A stretch of 64,000 nucleotides of DNA from Spirochaeta africana DSM 8902 (GCF_000242595.2 NC_017098.1:372001-436000), one strand, 5' to 3'; counted from the stretch's first letter, positions 11,517 through 19,317 are shown. Program-made: numbers and translations. The notes: generated by a model not told the origin, from the sequence alone.

Positions 11517-12920
11517 ATGACTGCTCAGGAAATTATGAAGATGATTCGCGAGAACGATGTCAAGTACATCGACCTCCAGTTCGGCGATATGTTCGGCAGA
11601 CTGAACCACACAACCTTTTTGGCTAAAAACTTCGATGCTGATCAGATCGAAAGCGGTATTCCATTCGATGGATCTTCGATCCGTGCCTGGAAATCAATCG
11701 AGAAGTCCGACATGATCTTCCGACCGGATCCGCGAACCGCATTTATCGACCCCTTTCGCGAACAGACCACCCTGGTCATGTTTGGCGATATCTGGGAGCC
11801 GCGCACCAACGAACGCTATGATCGCGCGCCGCGCAACATCGCCCACAAGGCTGTTGAATACATGAAGAGCCTTGGGCTCGGCGACCAGATCTTTTTTGGT
11901 CCGGAACCCGAGTTCTTTATCTTTGACAGCGTGCGTGTTGGCACCAGCCCGCAGAGCTCGTTCTATGAGATCGAAACCATCGAGGGCCCCTGGACAATGG
12001 GCGAGGACGGACACAACCTGGGGCACAAAATCAAGCACAAGGCCGGGTACTTTCCCGCAACACCCCAGGATACCCAGATGGATCTGCGCTCCGAGATTAC
12101 CTCGCACATGGAGGATATGGGTATCACGGTATACCTGCATCACCATGAGGTCGGCACCGCACAGGGCGAGATCGGTATCAAGTTCGGCGACATTATTACT
12201 GCCGGGGACCTGGTACACAAGTACAAGTATGCTGTAAAGAATACCGCATACAAGTACGGCAAGACTGCAACCTTTATGCCCAAGCCGATGTTCATGGACA
12301 ACGGCAGCGGGATGCATGTCCATGCATCCATCTGGAAGGACGGCGAGAACCTGTTTGCCGGCGATGGCTATGCCAACCTGAGCCAGACCGCTCTGTATGC
12401 TATCGGCGGACTGTTAAAGCATGGTCGTGCCATACAGGCCTTTACCAACCCTACCGCCAACTCCTATCGGCGTCTGGTTCCGGGATATGAGGCCCCGGTC
12501 AAGCTGGCCTACAGTGCGACCAACCGTTCGGCTGCGGTTCGTATCCCGTATGTCGACAATGACAAGGCTCGTCGCTTCGAGTTCCGCTGTGGCGATGCCA
12601 GTGGTTCGGCCTATCTGAACTTTGCCGCAATGACCATGGCCATGATTGACGGCATCCGCAATAAAATCGATCCGGGCGCTGCCCTGGATAAAAACCTGTA
12701 CGATCTGCCGCCGGAAGAGGCTGCTGCTATCCCCAGCACCTGCCCGACCCTGGAAGAGGCAATCGACGAAATGCTGCGCGACAAAGACTGGCTGACAGCC
12801 GGTGATGTATTCACCGACGAGTTTATCGAGGCCTACGTCGGATATCGCCGCGAAGAGGAAGTCGAGCCGATCAAGCTGCAGCCGACTCCCCTTGAATTCG
12901 AGCTGTACTACGACGTGTAA
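11517..12920 (+). CDS. glnA: Glutamine synthetase type I (GSI-beta)
   Basis: A 467-residue enzyme of standard GSI length. It condenses ammonia and glutamate to glutamine with ATP in the cytosol as a dodecamer. Visible signatures include IPFDGSSIRAW, the metal and substrate block FFGPEPEFFIFD, the ATP-binding NGSGMHVHAS, and RRLVPGYEAPVKLAYSATNR. NLYDLPPEE near residue 394 is the adenylylation loop with its Tyr (E. coli Tyr397), so the enzyme is of the GlnE-controlled subtype. This agrees with the upstream adenylyltransferase gene. A strong AAGGAG Shine-Dalgarno lies just before the ATG. A promoter of its own and a terminator directly after the stop show that it can be expressed independently of glnE. 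Confidence 0.97.
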   Translation: MTAQEIMKMIRENDVKYIDLQFGDMFGRLNHTTFLAKNFDADQIESGIPFDGSSIRAWKSIEKSDMIFRPDPRTAFIDPFREQTTLVMFGDIWEPRTNERYDRAPRNIAHKAVEYMKSLGLGDQIFFGPEPEFFIFDSVRVGTSPQSSFYEIETIEGPWTMGEDGHNLGHKIKHKAGYFPATPQDTQMDLRSEITSHMEDMGITVYLHHHEVGTAQGEIGIKFGDIITAGDLVHKYKYAVKNTAYKYGKTATFMPKPMFMDNGSGMHVHASIWKDGENLFAGDGYANLSQTALYAIGGLLKHGRAIQAFTNPTANSYRRLVPGYEAPVKLAYSATNRSAAVRIPYVDNDKARRFEFRCGDASGSAYLNFAAMTMAMIDGIRNKIDPGAALDKNLYDLPPEEAAAIPSTCPTLEEAIDEMLRDKDWLTAGDVFTDEFIEAYVGYRREEEVEPIKLQPTPLEFELYYDV

Positions 12921-12950: not shown

Positions 12951-12984
12951 TGGCGGCCGTCCGAATGGGCGGTCGCCATTTTTT
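12951..12984 (+). terminator. Rho-independent terminator of glnA
   Basis: TGGCGGCCGTCC (12951-12962) pairs with GGGCGGTCGCCA (12967-12978) with two wobble pairs over a GAAT loop, followed by six T. It points in the direction of glnA and touches the stop codon of the convergent pilus operon. Confidence 0.85.
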
Positions 12985-13886
12985 CAGGGGGCTTCGATGG
13001 TGATGTTGATCTCGTCCTGATAGGTGCCGGCAGCAGGCAGTTCTGTATACGGGAGAATCTCCAGCTGCAGTGTATGAGTTCTGCCATTGCTTCCGGTTGG
13101 CGCCAGGCTGGCAGCAGCGGTGACAGGGGTTCCACTGGCAAGATCGACAGGGCTTCCGTCAAACCGGAATCTGTAGGCAACCGTGTCACCACTTATTGAT
13201 TCACGGAGGTTGGCAGCGTTTTGGCTCTGTACCAGAACGTTGTAGGGAGTATTGGCCAGTACCCCGAGATCTACCTGTTGTGCGGTGTGTGGCAGCAGGT
13301 TTTCAAAGTTCAGTTCATAGAATGTACTCCCACTGCCATACCCGCTGCCGGCAGGGGTGATCTGCATGTCGATTACCTCGTCCATATCGATTCTGAGGTT
13401 GATTATGCTGTCGTCTGCAAGCTGGCCAGTATCCTGGGTACCGATATACAGTTCAAGCACCGGGGAATCTTCGTAGCGTCCCGCCATTGGGAGCTGTCCC
13501 GGCAACAGTCGGAAAACAAGATCGTATTCCCGAACCTGCCATTGATTACCGGATGCCGGAAAACTCCCGTTGATACGGTAGCTGTCTGACAGCGGTTGCC
13601 CGGTGGCTGCATCCAGAATCTGGTACTCCAGCGAGGCGCTGCCCTGCTGATGTTGCGCAGACCGGATGCTACTGCCGGGTGAGACGGTAAGCGTATAGTC
13701 GGTAGCAGCTTGCCGATGACGAATAGTTACGGTACGGGTAATCTCTACCGGTGCGGAAACGCTGTAGTTGCCGGTGACAGGGCGACCTGGATTGCCACGA
13801 AACTCAAGTGTCTGTCCGGGAAGTGAGACCGCGGTAAGGAGCAAAGCCACGGTCAGTACTCCAGCGAGGGTACGGTTACTCAACAT
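12984..13886 (-). CDS. Chaperone-usher pilus tip subunit / putative adhesin
   Basis: A 300-residue exported protein, the last gene of the pilus operon. The ATG at 13886 has GGAGG 6 nt upstream and overlaps the usher stop by 11 bp. A signal peptide (TLAGVLTVALLLTAVSLPGQ) precedes two beta-rich halves. The C-terminus, AGTYQDEINITIEAP, closely matches the end of the major pilin (GSYQDTLTFTISAE), the beta-strand motif typical of spore-coat-U/CsuA-type pilins. A two-domain protein encoded after the usher is the position of CsuE-like tip adhesins in archaic chaperone-usher systems. I infer that the first half binds a ligand and the second half is the pilin domain that docks on the fibre. No specific receptor can be predicted. 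Confidence 0.75.
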   Translation of the reverse strand: MLSNRTLAGVLTVALLLTAVSLPGQTLEFRGNPGRPVTGNYSVSAPVEITRTVTIRHRQAATDYTLTVSPGSSIRSAQHQQGSASLEYQILDAATGQPLSDSYRINGSFPASGNQWQVREYDLVFRLLPGQLPMAGRYEDSPVLELYIGTQDTGQLADDSIINLRIDMDEVIDMQITPAGSGYGSGSTFYELNFENLLPHTAQQVDLGVLANTPYNVLVQSQNAANLRESISGDTVAYRFRFDGSPVDLASGTPVTAAASLAPTGSNGRTHTLQLEILPYTELPAAGTYQDEINITIEAP

Positions 13887-16440
13887 AAACTGCCTCCAGG
13901 TGATATCTGCCCGAGGCATCCTCGGGTATAGTGAAGGTGCCGCTTCTGCCATCGTTCAGCTCTATTCTGTACATTCCAGGAACCAGGTCATACAGCTCCA
14001 GCTCGCCCTGGCGGTTGGAGAAAAAGCGTTCGCCGTGCTCCGGGAGTGAGGGATGTACTGGGGATTCATAATGGAACACCCGACCTGCTGCCAGTGGCAG
14101 CAGATCTCCGCTGCTTTTCCGCAGTGAAGTCGCCAGGACAACCGTTGCGGGGGACCCGAGCATGATCCGGATACCTTGCTGTACTCCCGGCTGAATGATA
14201 AATCTATGGGTGCCAAAAGAATATCCCTCGGGGAGATCCGGCGCATCAGGATACAGGGAATAATATCCGTAGGGGCGAAGGTTGGATATAATCCCGGTTC
14301 CCCATGGCCAAATTCGGGTGTTTCCCCGCCCGGATTCGGTAGAGAGGCTTACCTGCTTGTCGTGAAATCCGGGATGCGGTACCGCTATGACAAATGCTCC
14401 GCGATTGGGGCGAGTTGCCGCAATCGCACCATCGGCATACGCCAGGCCGGTACCAAACCCGAGGTTTGCTTCCCGTACAGAGCCGTGTCCGGATTGATGC
14501 CGGCTCCAGCGACCACTCAAATCTCCTTCGAAAACTGATGACCGCAATCGCAGCGATGCACCCGCTGCTGGAGCCAAATGGCCTGGATCATCAGGACTGC
14601 TCAGCTGTGGGTTTTGCAGGTTGGTCGAGGCATAGATCGAGGTATCATGACCTTCGTACACCGGCATGCCCGCTGAAATAGCATTGCTGCCTTCCCTTAT
14701 ATCCTGATAAACGCTCACCGTGGGACGCCGGCCCTCTTCGGATCCTGGTGAGTAGCTATAGTGGATACCCAGGCGAGGTTCAGGCGGTGAATCAGGATAC
14801 ACCTGGACAGAACCGCGTATCGATAAATTTGCGCCGCGATCATGGCGGGAATAGGCGGTAAGTGATAACAGCACCATATCAGATGCGGGTTCACGTCTCA
14901 GACTACCGCGGATAGTCGCGGCTAGACCCAGGTTCGGGCTCAGATTCTGGCCAACACTGGTAAATATGGAGATGTGTTCCCGGTTCCCCGGGTTCTCAAT
15001 TGGTGACGGTGTCCTTAGCCGCGGGCCAAGCAACCGCGCCCCGGCATGTATTCGTGGAAGTTGTGGGTTGCCGGAGAACTGAAGTTGATACTCGAACTGA
15101 GCGGCTGTGTCTAGGTCCCAGTCGGCATCAAAATGGCTTGCTAGGGTGAGCTGCAGGTTTCCGGCCGGTGCGGCAATCAATCCTGTCAGGGAGGCCAGCT
15201 GCTCGTATCGGGAAGTCACCAGGCCGCTGCCAATCGTCACGCGTGGTGATATGCCATAGTGATAATTTCCGCCAACAACAGGAAAATCGGTGTGCTGCCG
15301 TAGTACACCAGCAGCGGCAGAAAATTGCTGTGTTCCTGGTGATAACAGGCTGGGAAAGCCAAAGCGTCGATGCTCATGCCGCTCGGTACGATTGAGGTCG
15401 TCGGTTATCTCGATTGTTACAGTTGTGCGTCCGGCCGGGAGAGGGATATCTTCTATACGGTACGGTCCTGCTTGCAGCTCAAGCTTGTCTACTTCCTGAT
15501 TATCGACCAGTATCCGGATGATAGACGGGCGCTGTAGAAAAATATCAATACTGCCCATGCTGCTGGTAACCTGGAACGGGGAAAGGCTGTCATCCCGCCG
15601 AATTGCAATACCGTACATCCGAGGAGCACCGGAGGTAATGCCGATCGGTGGTAGTGATACCGTGCCAGCATCGACGCTCAGTAGCCATGGGGGGTAATCA
15701 TAGCGCAGGTAGAGATCCTCGGCAGCAGCCGGAGCAGCGGTTGTTGAGTCAAGCACAGTGGAACCGTACAGATGCAGATAGCTGGTCAGCGGCTGGATCT
15801 CCCAGGTGAGCCCCGATGCCAACCCGACAGCCAGTGAATGCGTCTCGGTTTCTGCCGCTGAGTCATAGCGTATGCCTGCTGTTCCTTCTATATTCAGAAA
15901 ACTGCTGAGGATAGCCCCCGGGGTAAGCTGGTCAGTTGGCGGATAACTGCTTTGGTGTAACGAAACACCGGTGACTGGCTGGGTTCCTTGCTGAGGCCGG
16001 ATACGGAGCACGGCGTTTTCTTCGTCGAATACTACCGGTAAACCGGCATTATCAAGGTGTCGTAGAGGTATGAACTCTGGGTGATCGGGCAGTTGCTGGA
16101 GAATTTCCGGGAGGATGTAGTCCTCGAGGCTGGAAATAAGCGAGCTATGCACCGCATGCGGTGTGTACTCAACCGGATCAATCAGTATCGATACATCTCG
16201 GAGATAGGTATTGTGCAGGTAGACAGGCAGCTGTACGACCGCAGACTCTGCTGCTGCCAGTTGGTGATCAATCGCCGAAGTAAGGAGCAGTACGCTTGCG
16301 ATTAGCGTTGTAAGACACCAGCGGGTGTTAAGGCTTCTGGCAGGCCGAGGTCTTCTTAAAAATTTTTGGAGTTTATGTCGTCTGAGTGAGATAGCCGCAG
16401 TCAGATCAGGTTTGTCAATCCGGCAGAATGAGGCTGACAT
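13876..16440 (-). CDS. Outer-membrane usher of a chaperone-usher pilus
   Basis: About 854 residues, the usual usher size. A long basic n-region precedes the signal core CLTTLIASVLLLTSAIDHQ. After an N-terminal periplasmic domain, the middle shows the usher plug signature: IRILVDNQEVDKLELQAGPY, RIEDIPLPAGRTTVTIEI and FGFPSLLSPGTQQFSAAAGV. A long beta-barrel follows, then C-terminal beta-sandwich domains near 690-850 (GTHRFIIQPGVQQGIRIML). It would gate secretion and polymerisation of pilins across the outer membrane. The ATG at 16440 is chosen for its GGAGG 6 nt upstream; the gene overlaps the chaperone by 26 bp and the tip gene by 11 bp. Base composition looks lower in G+C than neighbouring regions, which hints at transfer. 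Confidence 0.88.
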   Translation of the reverse strand: MSASFCRIDKPDLTAAISLRRHKLQKFLRRPRPARSLNTRWCLTTLIASVLLLTSAIDHQLAAAESAVVQLPVYLHNTYLRDVSILIDPVEYTPHAVHSSLISSLEDYILPEILQQLPDHPEFIPLRHLDNAGLPVVFDEENAVLRIRPQQGTQPVTGVSLHQSSYPPTDQLTPGAILSSFLNIEGTAGIRYDSAAETETHSLAVGLASGLTWEIQPLTSYLHLYGSTVLDSTTAAPAAAEDLYLRYDYPPWLLSVDAGTVSLPPIGITSGAPRMYGIAIRRDDSLSPFQVTSSMGSIDIFLQRPSIIRILVDNQEVDKLELQAGPYRIEDIPLPAGRTTVTIEITDDLNRTERHEHRRFGFPSLLSPGTQQFSAAAGVLRQHTDFPVVGGNYHYGISPRVTIGSGLVTSRYEQLASLTGLIAAPAGNLQLTLASHFDADWDLDTAAQFEYQLQFSGNPQLPRIHAGARLLGPRLRTPSPIENPGNREHISIFTSVGQNLSPNLGLAATIRGSLRREPASDMVLLSLTAYSRHDRGANLSIRGSVQVYPDSPPEPRLGIHYSYSPGSEEGRRPTVSVYQDIREGSNAISAGMPVYEGHDTSIYASTNLQNPQLSSPDDPGHLAPAAGASLRLRSSVFEGDLSGRWSRHQSGHGSVREANLGFGTGLAYADGAIAATRPNRGAFVIAVPHPGFHDKQVSLSTESGRGNTRIWPWGTGIISNLRPYGYYSLYPDAPDLPEGYSFGTHRFIIQPGVQQGIRIMLGSPATVVLATSLRKSSGDLLPLAAGRVFHYESPVHPSLPEHGERFFSNRQGELELYDLVPGMYRIELNDGRSGTFTIPEDASGRYHLEAVYVE

Positions 16441-17149
16441 CAGTAACCTCCGAACTACTGGAATCGCTGATAGGGTAATCACGCCAGCTGCCAGCCAGCA
16501 GATTGGTGCCTGCCAAACCGGGTAGGTCTGCGGAGGTAAGCAGGGTAGACGAGCCATCAGCGTACTGCACGATCAGTTCAAGGCTGTTCAACAGGCGGTG
16601 TTGCGATCCGCTGTTGGAAATCCGTATCCTGGTCTCGCCGTTGGTGGCGTCGATCACTTCGGCATGAACATCCGCTTCTGCTCGTTCCGGTGTGACATAT
16701 ACCGCTGCGAGATAGCGGTACATGATGGTTATAACCCCGCCGGATTCTGGTGCGGCTTCATCCCCGGTAAGGTTTACCGGCAGCTGTTCGGCAAGAAGTC
16801 GGAATGCCTGTTCACTGTCAATCTCGGCTGGTCCAATCCATCGAACCCGAACGGTCCGACGTTCCCCAGGATCCAGTATAACCCTTCCAGGAAAAATGCT
16901 GAACAGATCATTTGCCGGTTCTCGCACCTCGCTGCCGTCGGGCTGCAGTTCCCTCGTATGCATACTGAGTTCTATCGCGATCGGCGAATTCCCCGGGTTA
17001 TGCAGCTGAAAGGTCTGTGAGCTCATTGAGCCGGAGGGCTCAAAATGTTGGGAAATTGGCTGTAAACTGAATCCAGGAAGCGAAACGGTCCTGCCAAAAA
17101 GCAGGACCGCGATCGCAACTGGCAGTATTTTTTGCCTGATGCTACCCAT
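16415..17149 (-). CDS. Periplasmic pilus chaperone (PapD-like)
   Basis: A 244-residue exported protein with a signal peptide (ILPVAIAVLLFGRTVSLPG). The N-terminal immunoglobulin domain reads FEPSGSMSSQTFQLHN, then IFPGRVILDPGERRTVRVRW, the F/G strands of PapD-like chaperones. A second beta-sandwich begins near ITIMYRYLAAVYVTP, the G1-like edge strand with a basic residue that would hold the pilin C-terminus. It would bind unfolded pilins in the periplasm by donor-strand complementation and deliver them to the usher. It starts 3 nt after the pilin stop, with no separate Shine-Dalgarno, so translation is coupled. The architecture is nearest to the archaic/alternate chaperones encoded with CsuA-type pilins. 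Confidence 0.87.
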   Translation of the reverse strand: MGSIRQKILPVAIAVLLFGRTVSLPGFSLQPISQHFEPSGSMSSQTFQLHNPGNSPIAIELSMHTRELQPDGSEVREPANDLFSIFPGRVILDPGERRTVRVRWIGPAEIDSEQAFRLLAEQLPVNLTGDEAAPESGGVITIMYRYLAAVYVTPERAEADVHAEVIDATNGETRIRISNSGSQHRLLNSLELIVQYADGSSTLLTSADLPGLAGTNLLAGSWRDYPISDSSSSEVTDVSLILPD

Positions 17150-17152
17150 GGA

Positions 17153-17641
17153 CTATTCTGCAGATATGGTGAAAGTCAGGGTGTCCTGATAGCTCCCCTC
17201 AGGGAGGATGTCCCCGCTGGTGGCATCACCAGTTCCGTGGCTGACCAGGACATCCCGGGAAAGCCCCTGGGCCGGGGTAACATTGCTGTTGCTTATCGAC
17301 CCCCCAGTGGTCAGATCAATCTGATTACCCGCGCCGTATTCGAGGGTGTATGGCAGGCTGCCCTGTCCGCTACTATGCTGCAACTCGCCGCCATTTGCAG
17401 ATGTAATGGTAATTTGATATCCGGTGGTGCTGTTGCTTCGCTCACGTACAGTGGCAATATGCACATCGGCAGCTGCATCAGACAGGTCCAGGGTTACTCC
17501 CAGGTCCTCTATTTGCAGTTCGGTAATAAGTGGCATGTTCCCGTTCACCTGCAACTGACCGGTGTCGCTCCATTGTGCATAGACTGGAACTGATGCTGCC
17601 AACAGGATAACTGCTGCACTGATTCGTTTTACATTCTTCAT
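17153..17641 (-). CDS. Major pilin of a chaperone-usher pilus
   Basis: A 162-residue secreted protein and first gene of the pilus operon. The signal peptide ISAAVILLAASVPVYAQ is followed by a mature domain of about 140 residues rich in Ser, Thr and Gly with alternating beta strands. The end, SYQDTLTFTISAE, matches the terminal strand motif of spore-coat-U/CsuA-B-like pilins. The cysteines often found in that family are absent, so the fold would rely on strand complementation only. AGGAGG sits 7 nt before the ATG. The promoter is strong and the gene comes first in the operon, as expected for the most abundant subunit. Confidence 0.78.
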   Translation of the reverse strand: MKNVKRISAAVILLAASVPVYAQWSDTGQLQVNGNMPLITELQIEDLGVTLDLSDAAADVHIATVRERSNSTTGYQITITSANGGELQHSSGQGSLPYTLEYGAGNQIDLTTGGSISNSNVTPAQGLSRDVLVSHGTGDATSGDILPEGSYQDTLTFTISAE

Positions 17642-17659
17642 ATGAACCTCCTAGTTCAT
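17642..17659 (-). promoter_or_regulatory. Shine-Dalgarno of the pilin gene in a hairpin loop
   Basis: On the minus strand ATGAAC and GTTCAT form a perfect 6-bp inverted repeat around TAGGAG, so the ribosome site lies in a 6-nt loop directly before the pilin ATG. This could make translation sensitive to RNA folding or to a bound factor. Confidence 0.5.
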
Positions 17660-17674
17660 CTTTTACCTGATCAA

Positions 17675-17703
17675 ATTATAACAAGTATTCCAGTCTATGG
17701 CAA
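17675..17703 (-). promoter_or_regulatory. Promoter of the pilus operon
   Basis: On the minus strand TTGCCA (17698-17703), a 17-bp spacer and a consensus TATAAT (17675-17680) lie 34 bp upstream of the pilin ATG. The 8-bp inverted repeat ACCTGATC (17665-17672) / GATCAGGT (17731-17738) flanks this promoter. Confidence 0.8.
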
Positions 17704-17761: not shown

Positions 17762-18649
17762 ATGTGCAGGGCGTATTCTGACCTGGGATTTTGTGTGTGT
17801 GCCATCCTTCTGGTGCTGACCGGGTACCCGGCTGCAGCCAGGGATTATCCGGAGCCTCCGGAGGTCGCCAACCCGTTGTACCGGTATGAACCGGTCGGTT
17901 CAGCGGATGGTCCGCCGCTCCGCATTGCGGCAGGGTTTTTCGGCCGGTTCTGGTATGACCATGCCACCGTGAGCACCGGTGGCGAGGATGTATTCACCGT
18001 CGGTGTACAGGGATCTTCCCTGGCGCTGGCATGGCGGGATCGGCTGGTGCTCCAGCCACACTTCGCCAGTATCCTGGTAGTCGGTCCGGTGGCGGCGGAT
18101 GAACAGGCAGCAACGATCGCCGAATGGTGGATGAATGCTGTCCAGTATCAGTACGGGCTGCATGCTGCACACCGGAGCCGCTTCGGGGACCTGGTTGTCG
18201 GCTACCGGCGTACCAGCCTGCATCCCCTGCGCAAGGGCTACTCGGAGATCAGCCGGGACCAGTTTTTTGCCGGCTTGGGCCGTGATTTTGAGCCCTGGTA
18301 TCTCGCCGTCTACCTGCGGTACAGCGATCTGTGGGAGTTGTGGGAGAGTGGATTGCCGCAGCCGCGTAACAGGCTGGTTCTGGAGCTGCAGGCTGCTGCC
18401 GAGCACACCCTGAGGCGGGATCTGCAGGTATTTGCAGAACTCCAGCCGAGACTGCTGCTGAATCGCTACGGCCCGACCATGGAGTTGGAGCCAGTGGGCA
18501 GGGTCGGGGTGCGGGTTGGCTCGCAAGGTTCCCGGCTGGAGCTGTATCTGCATGGCTATCGCACCCACGACACAGAACAGCTGCGTGACCGGCGCTATGC
18601 TACAACGGTAATCGGGCTGGGCGTGGCGGCGGCCGGGCACGGAAAGTAA
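17762..18649 (+). CDS. Exported hypothetical protein, outer-membrane beta-barrel-like
   Basis: A 295-residue protein that I do not recognise. It has a signal peptide (LGFCVCAILLVLTGYPAAAR), then alternating hydrophobic/aromatic strands without any long hydrophobic helix. The ends of strands are rich in Tyr, Trp and Arg, for example YLAVYLRYSDLWELWESG and LELYLHGYRTHD. This pattern suits a small outer-membrane barrel of perhaps 10-12 strands. It is divergent from the pilus operon across a 120-bp gap, so it may share regulation or help anchor or modify the pilus, but that is only positional inference. The ribosome site is weak. Confidence 0.65.
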   Translation: MCRAYSDLGFCVCAILLVLTGYPAAARDYPEPPEVANPLYRYEPVGSADGPPLRIAAGFFGRFWYDHATVSTGGEDVFTVGVQGSSLALAWRDRLVLQPHFASILVVGPVAADEQAATIAEWWMNAVQYQYGLHAAHRSRFGDLVVGYRRTSLHPLRKGYSEISRDQFFAGLGRDFEPWYLAVYLRYSDLWELWESGLPQPRNRLVLELQAAAEHTLRRDLQVFAELQPRLLLNRYGPTMELEPVGRVGVRVGSQGSRLELYLHGYRTHDTEQLRDRRYATTVIGLGVAAAGHGK

Positions 18650-18897: not shown

Positions 18898-19317
18898 TCA
18901 GGATCTTCGCCAGCGCCAGCGCTGCTTGAACTGCCGGAATATATCGGGCCAGCGGATGGTGTGCGGTACCGGGTCTGTGCCGCCGGTATACAAGGAGCCG
19001 ATGCAGCGGCCAATCCGCAGTATCCCGATGGCGACACCGCGCAGCAGACCATGTCGCAGTATGGCGCGTCTGGTGTATTCCGAGCAGCTGGGGGAATAAA
19101 TGCAGGACGGCGGCAGCCAGGGGCTGATAACCAGCTGGTAGAACCGGATCGGGAGAATCCACAGCTGGCGAATCCAGCCCTGGAGCCGCTGCCATAGCCG
19201 GGTCGGCGGTGATCCCTGCGGCGCTGCAGACCCCGGCATGGCATCCTGTTCTCCCGGTGCTGCCGCCTGCTCCCCTGGCACAGGATCCTGCTCGCTGTGG
19301 GGGGTGTCAGACTGCAT
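18898..19317 (-). CDS. yidD: YidD-family membrane protein insertion efficiency factor
   Basis: 139 residues; the conserved YidD core begins near residue 55: IRFYQLVISPWLPPSC, then SCSEYTRRAILRHG and a cluster ending GGTDPVP. The family is a small amphipathic inner-membrane-associated protein that helps YidC/Sec insert membrane proteins. The first ~45 residues are a Pro/Gln/Gly-rich extension that is not part of the family, so a start at an internal Met is possible. The gene overlaps the end of pepD by 11 bp. It is not next to rpmH/rnpA, its usual neighbours. Confidence 0.85.
   Translation of the reverse strand: MQSDTPHSEQDPVPGEQAAAPGEQDAMPGSAAPQGSPPTRLWQRLQGWIRQLWILPIRFYQLVISPWLPPSCIYSPSCSEYTRRAILRHGLLRGVAIGILRIGRCIGSLYTGGTDPVPHTIRWPDIFRQFKQRWRWRRS

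Follow-up and report, generated by a model that had tools for sequence, protein, structure and literature searches.

The free-living spirochaete Spirochaeta africana DSM 8902 carries a four-gene operon of the chaperone-usher type on the minus strand of the stretch of DNA analysed here (GCF_000242595.2, NC_017098.1:372001-436000; 64,000 nucleotides, termed the window). It is probable, at roughly nine chances in ten, that the product of this locus is a minimal and self-contained chaperone-usher pilus of the non-classical type. The host genome (3,285,855 bp in a single contig) encodes each of pilin, chaperone, usher and tip subunit exactly once, and all four lie in this operon, arranged as follows, with positions counted from the first nucleotide of the window.

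17153-17641, minus strand: major pilin gene; 162 amino acids, with a signal peptide and a donor-strand-like motif
16415-17149, minus strand: PapD-like periplasmic chaperone gene; 244 amino acids, PapD_N match over the cut-off, non-classical type
13876-16440, minus strand: outer membrane usher gene; 854 amino acids from the ATG at 16440, recognized by a family profile
12984-13886, minus strand: two-domain tip subunit gene; 300 amino acids, SCPU-like N-terminal domain and pilin-like C-terminal domain

A preliminary description of this DNA, made from the sequence alone, had proposed a complete operon at this place, and all four reading frames and the order pilin-chaperone-usher-tip were confirmed. 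The arrangement is far beyond chance, and the same layout is kept in about 20 complete loci of relatives. The genes had also been described as overlapping, which is the case for chaperone and usher (26 nt) and for usher and tip (11 nt), whilst pilin and chaperone are separated by a 3-nt gap. The longest usher frame begins at 16557 and the true start is uncertain; the ATG at 16440, from which the 26-nt overlap is counted, is the likelier of the two.

Identification of the four proteins

The chaperone matches PapD_N at 28.8 bits (cut-off 23, E-value 1.4e-6), and a profile built from 26 spirochaete chaperones finds CsuC first (5.5e-6), followed by EcpB and, weakly, CfaA. Two positions are kept in 26/26 of these proteins: P87, equivalent to CsuC Pro59, is the proline that is invariant in the superfamily, and R117 is equivalent to CsuC Arg89, the residue that defines non-classical chaperones and is absent from classical ones (PMC4654587), which places the chaperone on the non-classical side. 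The tip subunit scores 26.1 bits against the spore coat U (SCPU) model PF05229, over its cut-off, and can be counted with the SCPU-type subunits of archaic systems; an SCPU match is found in 19 of 23 spirochaete tips, and the best solved relatives are CsuE, CupE1 and CsuA/B. The pilin profile in turn matches tip residues 209-299 at 6e-17, and the tip is therefore a two-domain subunit. The hidden Markov model searches with chaperone and spore coat U profiles, suggested in the preliminary description, gave matches for these two proteins.

The pilin has a signal peptide ending in ...VYA-Q, and its C-terminus reads G-x-Y-x-D-T-L-T-F-T-I. The signal peptide is followed by the motif L30-x-V32-x-G34-x-M36, and the general form [LIV]-x-[LIV]-x-[GA]-x-[VMI] at residues 30-36 is common to all 24 spirochaete pilins aligned (one ambiguous residue excepted), with a hydrophobic residue at positions 30, 32 and 36 in 96-100% and Gly or Ala at position 34. 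This alternation is what would be expected of a donor strand, and it is similar to the donor strand of FimA, V-x-F-x-G-x-V. No Pfam or NCBIfam match was obtained for the pilin, and the pilins of the family lack a direct SCPU match. Alignment of profiles with hhalign (signal peptides included) relates it to archaic SCPU pilins with a probability of 96 (E-value 1.3e-9), and to the pilins of a group of ushers termed lineage X below with a probability of 99 (E-value 4e-18). When a predicted model of the pilin was used in a fold search, the best matches were almost all chaperone-usher pilins (CfaB, CsuE, CsuA/B, PsaA, CupE), with CfaB at the top.

Recognition of the usher depends on its relatives. 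A profile of 24 family members aligns to FimD (3.5e-13) and PapC (1.8e-10) across the greater part of the barrel and plug, and homology to FimD and PapC is, as judged from this family profile, secure; the usher profile search, also suggested at the outset, was to that extent positive. Residues 298-353 match the E-set/plug region of TcfC, and the C-terminal domain of many family ushers matches CarboxypepD_reg, a beta-sandwich.

A number of observations weigh against the identification of a pilus. The usher on its own reaches 21 bits against PF00577, under the cut-off of 27.1, and in the family profile the first ~137 and last ~90 positions are unaligned to FimD. An AlphaFold model of the usher from a 3-sequence alignment reached a predicted local distance difference test score (pLDDT) of 33, and for this reason its barrel, N-terminal domain and C-terminal domains are supported by sequence only. 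The pilin model used in the fold search is moderately confident (pLDDT 63). Lastly, the pilus is a prediction from its genes.

Relationship to other chaperone-usher systems

The preliminary description likened the operon to the archaic Csu systems, and several features bear out the likeness. The archaic sigma systems (Csu of Acinetobacter, CupE of Pseudomonas) share with it the pilin-chaperone-usher-tip order, which archaic operons from Mesorhizobium and Caballeronia also have, together with an SCPU-like two-domain tip, an N-terminal donor strand (putative in the spirochaete pilin) and a non-classical chaperone carrying the equivalents of Pro59 and Arg89. It is thus conceivable that the locus is simply an archaic sigma operon of the Csu type, a direct CsuC/CsuD family member acquired from proteobacteria; gene order, the tip and the best match of the chaperone profile all speak for this, but usher phylogeny and residue conservation lead us to regard it as unlikely.

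Reference ushers for the phylogeny came from plasmids and E. coli; similarity played a part in their choice, and the trees contain some long branches. An initial tree with 69 ushers was in agreement with a careful one with 44. In the latter, the spirochaete ushers fall into a single clade (support 97/98), which groups (98/96) with lineage X, a set of ushers from Vibrio, Photobacterium, Novosphingobium, Sphingobium, Qipengyuania, Niveispirillum, Indioceanicola and Leptolyngbya, apart from the CsuD-type, classical (100/100) and Ecp/CS1-type (100/99) ushers. In the approximately unbiased (AU) test, a grouping of CsuD-type and spirochaete ushers without lineage X was rejected (p-AU 0.0015), and the usher therefore falls outside the CsuD branch. 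A single group of CsuD-type, lineage X and spirochaete ushers was not rejected (p-AU 0.197), which counts in favour of a Csu-type origin; the data are thus compatible with a deep position inside a wide archaic group. A tree of the chaperones gives the same picture, with weak support.

The residues that hold the subunit differ too. In CsuC the anchor for the C-terminus of the subunit is completed by Tyr196 with the aid of Arg174, both in the second domain (PMC4654587). According to sequence alignment, the Tyr196 position is Tyr in 8/8 archaic chaperones and in EcpB, but Asn in 25/26 spirochaete chaperones (N216 here), most of which have Ile, Leu or Val where CsuC has Arg174, so that the archaic two-domain anchor of Tyr196 and Arg174 is absent; it can be inferred from the alignment that Asn may take over the role of Tyr196. 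Archaic pilins also have a conserved disulphide (C41-C85 in CupE1; PMC10104325), and two cysteines are invariant in the 8 archaic pilins compared, whereas the mature part of the pilin is free of cysteine here and in all 24 spirochaete pilins. Unlike the archaic sigma systems, moreover, the operon has one pilin and no adaptors, the pilin lacks a Pfam SCPU match and the usher is on another deep branch. In the narrow sense, plain membership of the Csu family is rejected on the usher tree, the AU test and the anchor residues.

The nearest non-spirochaete ushers are those of lineage X, which score 395-544 bits with the spirochaete profile (CsuD-type ushers, 71-227 bits). These operons, found on plasmids of Vibrio, Photobacterium, Novosphingobium, Qipengyuania, Sphingobium and Leptolyngbya, are annotated as usher or hypothetical proteins, and no characterization of them was found in the literature. 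They mostly have the order pilin-chaperone-usher followed by a 300-residue tip, and the chaperones of Leptolyngbya and Qipengyuania also carry Asn at the Tyr196 position. They differ in that their pilins often contain cysteines and in that Vibrio and Photobacterium have two chaperones, most without the Arg89 equivalent; the two genes are adjacent in the plasmid operons L114:976-2449 and L115:2016-3406, where 3/4 of the products lack it.

Alternative alpha systems (Ecp, CS1/CFA-I) have in common with the spirochaete operon a non-classical chaperone of the Arg89 type, and supply the closest fold match of the pilin model, but their ushers are on a separate branch and they lack an SCPU-type tip. 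With the classical type 1 (Fim) and P (Pap) systems the operon would share the general donor-strand mechanism, and its usher profile can be aligned to theirs, but the usher branch is distinct and the spirochaete chaperone has the non-classical Arg.

We tentatively propose, at a little under even odds, that the spirochaete operons, together with those of cyanobacterial and certain alpha- and gammaproteobacterial relatives, may form a fourth main branch of chaperone-usher systems beside the classical, alternative and Csu-type archaic ones. The branch would have a re-wired anchor of Arg and Asn in place of Arg and Tyr/Arg, the spirochaete pilins within it would be disulphide-free, and in one spirochaete family it would have given rise to ushers that are anchored in the inner membrane through transmembrane helices and an extended linker, acidic or rich in proline.

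Base composition does not point to recent acquisition. The operon has a G+C content of 54.9%, compared with 59.5% for the remaining window, and the preliminary description rightly noted that it was lower than its neighbours; across the genome, sampled as twenty 20-kb stretches (mean 57.3%, standard deviation 4.1%), the value is ordinary (z = -0.6), which also counts against acquisition of a Csu-type operon. G+C at third codon positions (GC3) is mildly low in the four genes, at the 6th-10th percentile, and in 17 relatives the operon averages 1.5 points of G+C above its flanks. The low composition had been taken to hint at transfer. A recent transfer from proteobacteria is not supported, given the genome-wide z value, the operons of relatives, whose G+C content is no lower than that of their flanks, and the tree, in which the nearest usher is that of another Spirochaetales genome. 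Composition makes no case for recent transfer.

Distribution among spirochaetes

The host was confirmed to be a spirochaete and not a proteobacterium: its genome encodes FlaA, the periplasmic-flagellum sheath protein, which is absent from 14 control genomes, and relatives of the usher occur in a Spirochaetales and a Spirochaetaceae metagenome-assembled genome (SLAA01000185.1 and PXEI01000210.1, respectively). These two and a proteobacterial one were the only named relatives found in a scan of the collection, for which the closer three-sequence alignment was used as the broader alignment had no sufficiently conserved stretch. By tblastn, the usher is found in 25 of 61 related genomes and 23 of 46 within the order. 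The usher family profile identifies 37 of 393 Spirochaetota genomes, all in one class; the Pfam usher model finds 8, with only 2 over the cut-off. Standard annotation largely misses this family in spirochaetes.

Other families of the class show variants of the system, those of f29 and f34 with ordinary signal peptides. Three loci of f29 (L158, L159, L161) contain arrays of several pilin- or tip-like genes, and L159 has two chaperones. In family f16, 20/20 full-length ushers (L056, L073, L075, L077-L093; 1041-1307 amino acids) start with 1-7 predicted transmembrane segments, followed by a TonB-like linker of 70-250 residues that is acidic or rich in proline, and have no other export signal; in most loci the usher gene directly follows the chaperone gene. 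The f16 ushers thus look as if they are tethered to the inner membrane; the usher of the window is not.

A model for pilus assembly

From these likenesses we infer by analogy how the fibre may be assembled, shaped and used. The four proteins would be exported by Sec. Omp85 and TamB proteins, through which the usher would be inserted into the outer membrane, are encoded in the genome, where the gene for a TamB-type protein lies next to one for Omp85. The chaperone would lend a beta-strand to each subunit, with Arg117 anchoring the C-terminal carboxylate, and hand it to the usher, where the N-terminal strand of an incoming pilin (L-x-V-x-G-x-M) would displace the chaperone strand in the preceding subunit. 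The tip would be exported first; the first pilin would cap its pilin-like C-terminal domain and leave the SCPU-like N-terminal domain exposed as an adhesin. The single pilin would then polymerize to a thin fibre, as in Csu and CupE pili, probably serving in attachment to surfaces, mats or other cells.

The product of the four genes might instead be a non-fibrous secreted or surface system, such as a capsule-like coat or short structures consisting of the tip only. Some classical chaperone-usher systems give amorphous or very thin polymers, and the single pilin without adaptors would fit such a product. Against this, the pilin carries its own donor-strand motif and should therefore be able to polymerize, and thin zigzag fibres are known from archaic relatives that are similarly laid out (PMC9452303, PMC10104325), which makes a product other than a fibre quite improbable. 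Least probable of all is a degenerate or silent remnant, for which the patchy spread in the order and the mildly low GC3 can be cited, but which is hard to reconcile with four intact, tightly packed frames, conserved motifs, a promoter-like site and the rarity of frame damage in the family. The damaged member is an usher split by an in-frame TGA (L015/L045, G044:C363), perhaps a decayed copy or a sequencing error.

Signals and neighbouring genes

The following features surround the operon.

17675-17703, minus strand: promoter-like site, TTGCCA-17-TATAAT with TG in front; consensus match only
12951-12978, plus strand: terminator-like hairpin between the convergent glnA (plus) and tip gene (minus); consensus match only
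11517-12920, plus strand: glnA, convergent with the operon and bounding its tip side

The promoter had been called strong. It lies directly upstream of the pilin gene, matches 11/12 consensus positions and is the sole match of its type in 5 kb; since shuffled sequence averages 3.7 such sites, it is the position that is informative and not the existence of the match. The hairpin has its T run on the plus strand only. Beyond the promoter is a divergent frame of 295 amino acids (17762-18649, plus) with a signal peptide and no Pfam match, and then a frame with a Cys motif (18898-19317, minus) that by eye is YidD-like. Elsewhere in the window, AT skew is strongly negative at 40-41 kb (-0.33) and strongly positive at 42-43 kb (+0.24), and G+C dips to 0.48-0.52 at 44-46 kb, beside a tRNA-Leu gene.

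Significance

Archaic systems have been recorded in Proteobacteria, Cyanobacteria and Deinococcus-Thermus (PMC4654587, PMC10104325), and a 2016 survey of outer membrane pores lists Spirochaetae under the usher family TC 1.B.11 (Transporter Classification; PMC4827864). Spirochaete ushers are therefore already on record, and the preliminary statement that no spirochaete example had been characterized stands for the operon and pilus, no description of which was found; the open literature yielded nothing on chaperone-usher pili of Spirochaeta or Sphaerochaeta. Periplasmic flagella and an unusual envelope are hallmarks of spirochaetes; no described chaperone-usher pilus was found among them. The family is a widespread but uncharacterized branch of chaperone-usher systems, and because a conserved operon family spans several families of the class, mostly under the Pfam cut-off, a surface-adhesion organelle of a whole phylum would have been overlooked. 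Chaperone and pilin of this lineage also depart from two rules derived from Csu and CupE, and its f16 members raise the question of how an outer membrane usher works with its N-terminus held in the inner membrane.

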